DNA from: a virus
Strand: one strand, 5' to 3'
DNA length: 24,598 nucleotides
IMG/VR virus record: IMGVR_UViG_3300017781_000125
Coordinates: 1 to 24,598 of that record
The stretch's first letter is position 1. Each line of letters begins with the position of its first letter. The notes beneath the pieces were generated by a model that saw only the letters and a program-made list of their open reading frames with translations, searched no databases and was not told where the DNA came from. A program made the position numbers and the translations under genes. Positions 14,970 through 22,330 of this stretch are shown one piece after another.

Positions 14970-15025
14970 TAGTATGATTTTTTAGGTTTCGGTTTTTTAA
15001 CTATCTTTTTCTTTTTTTTTGCCAT
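14969..15025 (-). CDS. Lysine-rich micro-ORF (18 residues) leading into the tape measure gene
   Basis: ATG at 15025 begins an 18-codon frame, MAKKKKKIVKKPKPKKSY, ending in TAA that shares its A with the tape measure ATG (TAATG). It starts 1 nt after the stop of the 1295-residue tail gene. Eleven of 18 residues are lysine. It may act as a coupling leader, or as a small basic peptide in its own right. Its exact fit into the only gap between two large genes supports translation, although AT-rich DNA makes lysine codons common by chance. Confidence 0.5.
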   Translation of the reverse strand: MAKKKKKIVKKPKPKKSY

Positions 15026-20901: not shown

Positions 20902-21486
20902 TTAATCGTTACATCCACTTTGTTCACAATCAGCTAAAGAAGAATAACTACCGCTACCATCACCTGGATCAACGCACTCGCCATTTATACAATTATAACT
21001 TTCAGCTATTTGCGTTGGTGGGAAATTATTTGGGTTCATGTCAATACAATCTACAAAAACCTCTAAATTAAATTGACAGCTTACAGACACTAAATTATCA
21101 TTATGCGTACCTTTTTGTCTAATAAAATTTATTGTGTCTGGTGGCAAAACATCTTGTGCATTGTTACTAGATGCTAAACAACCTAAAAAATTTAAAATTC
21201 TTTTTTCTAAAGCACTCATTATAACATGAACATTATCAGTTAGTTCTACTCCTGTAATATTTCTTTTAGATGTTGGGCGAAAAGCTGAAATTATACAATT
21301 ATAAGTTTTTAAATTAGTATTTACATCTACAATACTAGAAGTAGGATATTGAAAATTTAACATATCGTATTGTATGCTATGATCAAAGTTGATTGATGTC
21401 AAATTACCAAACTTAAAAGATTTAAACCCAACAGCAGTTGAGCAAGTACTCATATTGTTTACTATATTTGTTAAAGATGTAGCCAT
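20902..21486 (-). CDS. Tail-module protein with Cys-rich C-terminal tail
   Basis: The 194-residue protein begins at a TAATG junction with the -1 frame of the chaperone pair. Its body is beta-rich (GFKSFKFGNLTSINFDHSIQYDML, LVSVSCQFNLEVFVDC). It ends in a compact Cys-rich tail of about 32 residues with the layout YNCxxGxC-DPG-G-G-YSSLADC-x3-C. Such tails recur in marine Bacteroidota phage proteins as I recall them and may be small disulfide- or metal-stabilised modules. A tail tube or completion role is inferred from location only. Confidence 0.6.
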   Translation of the reverse strand: MATSLTNIVNNMSTCSTAVGFKSFKFGNLTSINFDHSIQYDMLNFQYPTSSIVDVNTNLKTYNCIISAFRPTSKRNITGVELTDNVHVIMSALEKRILNFLGCLASSNNAQDVLPPDTINFIRQKGTHNDNLVSVSCQFNLEVFVDCIDMNPNNFPPTQIAESYNCINGECVDPGDGSGSYSSLADCEQSGCND

Positions 21487-21785
21487 TATTTTTGTTTTTT
21501 ATTTATATCTGTTAAAATTTCCTCAAACTTTTGACAAGCATTTTGCCATGACAAGTAAGTTAAAATTTCATCTAATCCTGCGTTTAAAACGCTATCTATA
21601 GGGCTTAAATCTTTGCTAGTAAAAATTCCATCTTTTGCAATTCTGTAAACAGAATTTAGCCAACCATAACCATCTATTGTTCCTTTTGCTGCTCTTTTAG
21701 CCTTTGGATCTCCACCGCTTGATAGGTTAGGAAACTGGTCAGCAATCCTTGTTCTAACTTGTTCAAAAAAAAAGCGACATCCCAA
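21486..21785 (-). CDS. Tail assembly chaperone, -1 frame extension (GT-like part)
   Basis: This open frame lies in the -1 frame relative to the 218-residue gene and overlaps it by 112 nt. It contains no ATG anywhere; its only nominal start is a TTG at 21785. A T9 run lies at its beginning. If ribosomes slip back one base after the second TTT codon there, the product joins 188 residues of the upstream protein to the last 93 residues here, giving about 281 residues. The extension contains GYGWLNSVYRIAKDGIF and a helical end, like the T part of lambda G-GT pairs. It ends in TAATG with the next gene. Confidence 0.7.
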   Translation of the reverse strand: MGCRFFFEQVRTRIADQFPNLSSGGDPKAKRAAKGTIDGYGWLNSVYRIAKDGIFTSKDLSPIDSVLNAGLDEILTYLSWQNACQKFEEILTDINKKQK

Positions 21786-22330
21786 ATTGTTGCCATGTCT
21801 AATTTTTCAAACAATTTTGCTCGTTTATCTATTAAATCATCATTTAACTTCTCATCTTCACCCTCTTTTTTACAAAGAATAGCTAGTTGTCTTGGCATAT
21901 ACTCTATTTTACCTCCTTCAATTAAATTAGATTGTATTTCTAATTGTTCTGCTTCAATATACCTTCCAAAACTAGACTTACCCATTAAATCTTTTGGTAA
22001 AAAAAACTTTTCAGTTCCTATTGTAAAAGATTGTATATTTATAGGCACATATTGTTCATTTATAAAAGATAAAGATTTCATAATCTTTTCTGCCTCTCCT
22101 AAATCCCAATGTGATACCTCTTCCTCACTGCTATTTGTCCAAAAAGCTAAAACCTGCGTGTTAAACTCTAAAGCCCTTAGTGTTTTTTTATATTCATCTT
22201 CTGTTTTATCCTCTTCCTTATCTTCGTATCTTTTAATTAGTTTTGTAAAATCAAAAAATTTATTCCATTTTACTTCTAACCAGTTTTCAGGTAGATTTAC
22301 TACCTTATCGTTCATCTTGAATTCAATCAT
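21674..22330 (-). CDS. Tail assembly chaperone-like protein (G-like, zero frame)
   Basis: A soluble, charged, mostly helical 218-residue protein (MIEFKMNDKVVNLPENWLEV...). The C-terminal half has KSSFGRYIEAEQLE, EGGKIEYMPRQLAILCKKEG and DLIDKRAKLFEKLDMATIWDVAFFLNK segments of the kind found in tail chaperones of Bacteroidota phages. Chaperones of this type hold the tape measure protein soluble while the tail tube assembles. The last 30 residues follow the T9 frameshift site and would be replaced in the fusion product. It starts at a TAATG junction with the upstream gene. Several tail genes separate it from the tape measure, unlike lambda. Confidence 0.66.
   Translation of the reverse strand: MIEFKMNDKVVNLPENWLEVKWNKFFDFTKLIKRYEDKEEDKTEDEYKKTLRALEFNTQVLAFWTNSSEEEVSHWDLGEAEKIMKSLSFINEQYVPINIQSFTIGTEKFFLPKDLMGKSSFGRYIEAEQLEIQSNLIEGGKIEYMPRQLAILCKKEGEDEKLNDDLIDKRAKLFEKLDMATIWDVAFFLNKLEQGLLTSFLTYQAVEIQRLKEQQKEQ
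21765..21773 (-). promoter_or_regulatory. T9 slippery run, candidate -1 ribosomal frameshift site
   Basis: On the minus strand the zero frame reads GCT TTT TTT TTG across nine consecutive T residues. The -1 frame reads TTT TTT TTT GAA and continues open to 21486. A T-TTT-TTT heptamer allows both tRNAs to re-pair after a one-base slip. No strong downstream stem-loop was obvious by eye. Confidence 0.6.

Follow-up and report, generated by a model that had tools for sequence, protein, structure and literature searches.

The window, that is, the whole stretch of DNA analysed here, is the 24,598-base virus contig IMGVR_UViG_3300017781_000125, in which the terminase gene and a single 134-aa gene are followed by a pair of overlapping reading frames, hereafter A and B (Table 1). 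The nearest relatives of the terminase are those of Flavobacterium phage 11b (51%) and then Cellulophaga phage phi10:1 (47%), and the host is therefore probably a flavobacterium; the family of phages carrying the pair has hosts among both marine and freshwater bacteria. Four genes, of 194, 180, 489 and 1295 aa and together spanning approximately 6.5 kb, separate the pair from a solidly identified tape measure gene (1321 aa), which lies downstream in the window as well as in a relative (G001). The preliminary description had called these four sizeable tail genes: their number and size stand, but no family match better than E 0.05 supports their tail identity, and Pfam and PHROGs look-ups of A, B and their neighbors yielded no function. 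A second nine-base run falls in the intergenic stretch that separates the tape measure gene from its 1295-aa neighbor. Elsewhere the window encodes a ClpP-like head protease with an N-terminal extension of about 160 residues, which matches phrog_2859 weakly; the relative of this protease in L173 has 330 aa and no such extension. In the two G001 loci, L172 and L173, packaging and tail genes form one block and the protease, probable capsid and portal genes another, so that the terminase does not adjoin the portal.

Table 1. Positions of the A/B pair, its slippage site and other features referred to in the text
Feature	Positions	Strand	Remarks
ORF A	22330..21674	minus	218 aa, ATG start; short, unshifted product; weak phrog_25418 match
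T9 slippage run (A9 on plus)	21765..21773	minus	register (GC)T TTT TTT TT(G); contains heptamer T_TTT_TTT
G after T9 run	21764	minus	invariant in the window's clade
Frame B	21486..21773	minus	-1 to A; 95 aa from run to TAA stop (21488-21486); no ATG
Predicted A-B fusion	21486..22330	minus	281 aa; junction ...WDVA-FFF-EQVR...
Second nine-base run	15012-15020	plus	T9
ClpP-like head protease	784-2268	minus	
Nonlabens phage P12024S gp38, gp39	23136-23830 of L176 (NC_018271)		
B match with in-frame TGA	L294 / G014:C1:10167-10412		
6H gp10 vs. 23T gp10	L169 8402-9300 vs. L170 8968-9849		6H gp10 shortened

Measured from its TTG at 21785, frame B overlaps A by 112 nt (133 nt from the previous stop), and its exact -1 relation to A, its want of an ATG, the T9 run in the appropriate register within the overlap and a fusion of about 281 residues, all read off the sequence in the preliminary description, were reproduced on recomputation. 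The site reads GCT TTT TTT TTG in the A frame and CGC TTT TTT TTT GAA in the -1 frame. An AlphaFold model of A (mean pLDDT 79) is mixed alpha/beta and then helical, and B carries the conserved pattern FFF..R..I...FPNL ... GYGWLNSVY ... EILTYLSW. We propose that most decoding would end in protein A, with a minor fraction slipping by one base at the run to enter frame B, such that both A and the A-B fusion would be made; in the ribosomal version, tRNAs on T_TTT_TTT would re-pair one base back. Programmed slippage of this kind, by either the ribosome or RNA polymerase and within a G/GT-like chaperone pair, is what we consider the quite probable explanation of the locus.

The evidence lies largely in the relatives of the pair. 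A search with A returned 35 of them (41-69% identity), each of which shares the register of the window's T9 run and has an open B frame in -1; because one of the patterns in that search contained the FF residues, it was repeated with B alone and with patterns away from the site, and all 80 loci thus recovered (55 distinct) show a run of exactly T9, a G next to it and frame B in -1. The same T9 element is found in a divergent group (L107 and L155-L162) with A proteins 23-29% identical to that of the window. The comparison with relatives that the preliminary description had suggested as a check shows the T run and both frames to be conserved. Nor is the run a product of chance: across 299 nonredundant ORFs (74,037 codons), every one of the 36 T9 runs is this slippage site, and in 31 diverse A genes (18-79% amino acid identity) the third positions of the A/G-F-F-L codons are invariant (T, T, T, G); nearly all other conserved codons vary in these genes, with few exceptions, e.g. 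Phe 25, Asp 184 and Leu 201. The G after the run is held at the nucleotide level, since TTG makes up 12% of Leu codons in A, and at the B position opened by this G all five GNN amino acids (E, D, G, A, V) occur and none besides. The only other nine-base runs inside ORFs of L001-L164 and the window are A9 runs in three ORFs, near the start of a recurring 180-aa gene (GCTGAAAAAAAAATAAG). A scan of genome contigs gave a single match, which we attribute to chance, the Chloroflexi contig concerned carrying a regulator-like ORF; tblastn of A and B against phage records found no match, and B of the divergent L107 alone led to Bacteroides phage BT-TP2.

Foldseek with the A model pointed to the cultured Nonlabens phage P12024S, where gp38 follows the terminase and contains a T9 run in another register (CTT TTT TTT TAT), with a B homolog in -1. 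The annotation of that genome treats gp38 and gp39 as two distinct hypothetical genes, and gp39 is the tail of the -1 frame that begins at the T9 run within gp38. Searches starting from P12024S (45 and 78 distinct loci) delineated a second, distant clade that includes the Nonlabens phages P12024S/L and has T9 or T10 in a register unlike that of the window's clade; profile comparisons between the two clades bear out their kinship, A aligning at a probability of 98.7 (E 3.5e-16), with the FF residues matched, and B at 97.5 (E 7.7e-12). In one locus (L294), the B match has a single in-frame TGA. As near-copies inflate counts, distinct contexts are reported: the 152 with a T run comprise 144 T9, seven T10 and one T8 (L295), a distribution in which the T-run share of the second clade may be overstated, since sampling there leaned on FF-containing peptide patterns and members other than T9 may be under-counted. 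These contexts have the core NNT TTT TTT T in common. Members of the window's clade gain their ninth T 3' of this core (GCT/GGT..TTG), those of the second clade 5' of it (NTT..TAT/TGG/TCG); in two further cases, AAT..TTT and AGT..TTG, a T is missing 5' and regained 3'. Seven relatives at 45-51% GC use TTC and TTT for Phe in A at 44:14, yet all seven have CTT TTT TTT TAT at the site.

A further lineage, clade 3 (15 loci, GC 43-52%), has no run over four T; all of its members carry NNA_AAT_TTT with B in -1. In the tree, where sites were labeled as 5' codon, A_AAT_TTT, T8 or single, clade 3 is nested in the second (T9) clade, with weak support for its exact neighbors. With no homopolymer present, it must be the ribosome that acts in this lineage, if the fusion is made. 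Flavobacterium phage 23T gp10, laban6-1 gp17 and Bacteroides phage BT-TP2 gp31 constitute one family of single-ORF homologs, and the front of gp31 matches A and its back B in short profile matches of modest score, which is what a functional fusion would lead one to expect. Such phrog_25418 proteins (23T gp10, BT-TP2 gp31) are collinear with the predicted fusion, their N and C ends resembling A and B, respectively, but they are read in one uninterrupted frame and so yield no short product by slippage. The gp10 of Flavobacterium phage 6H was considered as a natural frameshift and rejected: a mismatched block of approximately 40 nt and a 2-nt difference from 23T point to a likely assembly fault.

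Given a run kept in more than 100 diverged relatives, the slip at T9 is, on this comparative evidence, very probably real, and the programmed -1 expression put forward in the preliminary description draws strong support from four features: conservation of the run, conservation of its register, the placement of B in -1 to A, and a B frame devoid of ATG. Two other readings of the same frames were weighed. B could be a separate gene with its own start, either at the window's TTG, which precedes the run by 12 bases, or at an internal ATG such as that annotated for P12024S gp39; however, B homology begins at the run itself, upstream of the annotated gp39 ATG, 153 of 159 contexts lack an ATG around the beginning of B, the seven clade 3 contexts have neither ATG nor GTG nor TTG there, and the synonymous conservation of the run would be left unexplained, all of which makes independent initiation very unlikely. 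Homopolymers also mutate readily, and the run might toggle the locus between a long intact gene and a disrupted form, either as a phase switch driven by replication slippage or, seemingly, through a sequencing error. No T-run relative has an in-frame fused variant, with B invariably in -1, T8 and T10 included; because such variants are absent, we dropped a switch at the DNA level, and regard this reading as exceedingly improbable.

As for the machinery behind the programmed slip, we lean slightly toward the ribosome. Heptamers of the ribosomal X_XXY_YYZ type stand in the 0-frame as T_TTT_TTT in all T-run members, where any T9 contains one, and as A_AAT_TTT in clade 3, and both this clade and the T_TTT_TTT heptamer speak for ribosomal slippage; U_UUU_UUU/C is shift-prone in E. 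coli (PMC4066793). T9 is also a standard slippage site for RNA polymerase, and insertion of one extra U would lead into the very same fusion, so the ribosome is not the sole option: the polymerase would add one U (or drop two) at the run, and the U10 mRNA would then be translated normally into A-B, a route that we rate as possible rather than probable. It fits a run that falls short of nine in just one of 152 contexts, its ninth T coming from the 3' side where the 5' base is not T and from the 5' side otherwise, and a shift codon that is never TTC, although GC-rich members prefer that codon and U_UUU_UUC works efficiently as a ribosomal motif in E. coli (PMC4066793). It is likewise in keeping with the result of our structure searches, in which no RNA structure was found down- or upstream of the site (mean z about 0 for sets of 31, 49 and 9 sequences, pseudoknots being outside the model); no consistent strong Shine-Dalgarno-like stimulator was seen in any clade. 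Stimulatory structures or Shine-Dalgarno-like elements are usual for -1 frameshifting, though not required. Long runs are, moreover, avoided in other ORFs (A runs of at least nine, 3 seen vs. 8.5 expected; T8, 3 vs. 7.8; T9, 0 vs. 1.0), and in many bacteria selection against slippage sets in at runs of nine (PMC1088944). Against the polymerase stand the A_AAT_TTT clade, which has no homopolymer and cannot use this route, the single T8 locus and the invariant G after the run in the window's clade, which polymerase slippage does not explain. The trait expected of transcriptional slippage, a homopolymer of about nine bases kept whatever its register, is accordingly present in T-run members and absent in clade 3. 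Homologous genes may use either route, as does dnaX (PMC5009743). In common with the A9/T9-type sites of Thermus thermophilus dnaX, Shigella mxiE/spa13 and IS elements, where RNA polymerase slips, the present site is a coding-region homopolymer some nine bases long that selection maintains, with no RNA structure seen; it differs in that one subclade has exchanged the run for a ribosome-only heptamer.

The products themselves invite comparison with tail assembly chaperones, the identity that the preliminary description had given the pair. As in phage lambda G/GT and its siphophage relatives, the frames overlap in the tail region, the second is in -1 and has no start of its own, the slippery sequence in the overlap is conserved among relatives, and the N-terminal protein would occur in short and extended products. 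The pair differs from lambda G/GT in its T9 slippery element (that of lambda is G_GGA_AAG), in having no detectable sequence homology to named chaperones, and in being preceded by the terminase and one further gene; a position directly upstream of the tape measure gene, typical of G/GT-type pairs but not strictly defining, is also absent here. A gene in the group adjoining the pair has a neck/tail-completion match in a relative, and seven of eight tailed phages in a set including the Nonlabens phages are reported to have siphovirus morphology (PMC8776804). No profile, Pfam or PHROG match of A or B to a known chaperone was obtained: phrog_25418, 32199 and 38404 are listed in PHROGs as 'unknown function', the chaperone-named Foldseek matches of the A model are weak (E 0.12 and 0.47), and PDB searches by sequence and fold gave no useful match. 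A search with PF10145 found no tape measure in 15 clade 2/3 genomes, and a literature search no paper joining tail assembly chaperone, frameshift and Flavobacterium. Thus the layout fits the earlier assignment, but the family listings and structural matches do not extend to it, and given these and the tape measure gene four genes downstream we call the pair chaperone-like rather than a member of the class. By analogy, a tail assembly chaperone is plausible, and we think it likely that the pair acts in a G/GT-like manner, A outnumbering the minority of molecules that also carry B; in known systems, reporter assays put the shift in tail chaperone genes at 6-7% (PMC3711429), and lambda gpG and gpGT occur at 30:1 (PMC5009743).

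Together, these data attribute a coding strategy with two products to families of phage proteins that are listed as of unknown function, and correct the annotation of cultured phages, namely that of Nonlabens P12024S gp38/gp39. They also provide a natural series within one gene (T9, T10, T8, A_AAT_TTT and a single ORF) for testing ribosomal against RNA polymerase slippage. More tentatively, the isoform ratio in T-run members could be set by RNA polymerase at a run of at least nine, one sublineage having switched to the ribosomal A_AAT_TTT; if true, this would mean that the same output has moved between transcription and translation inside one phage gene family.
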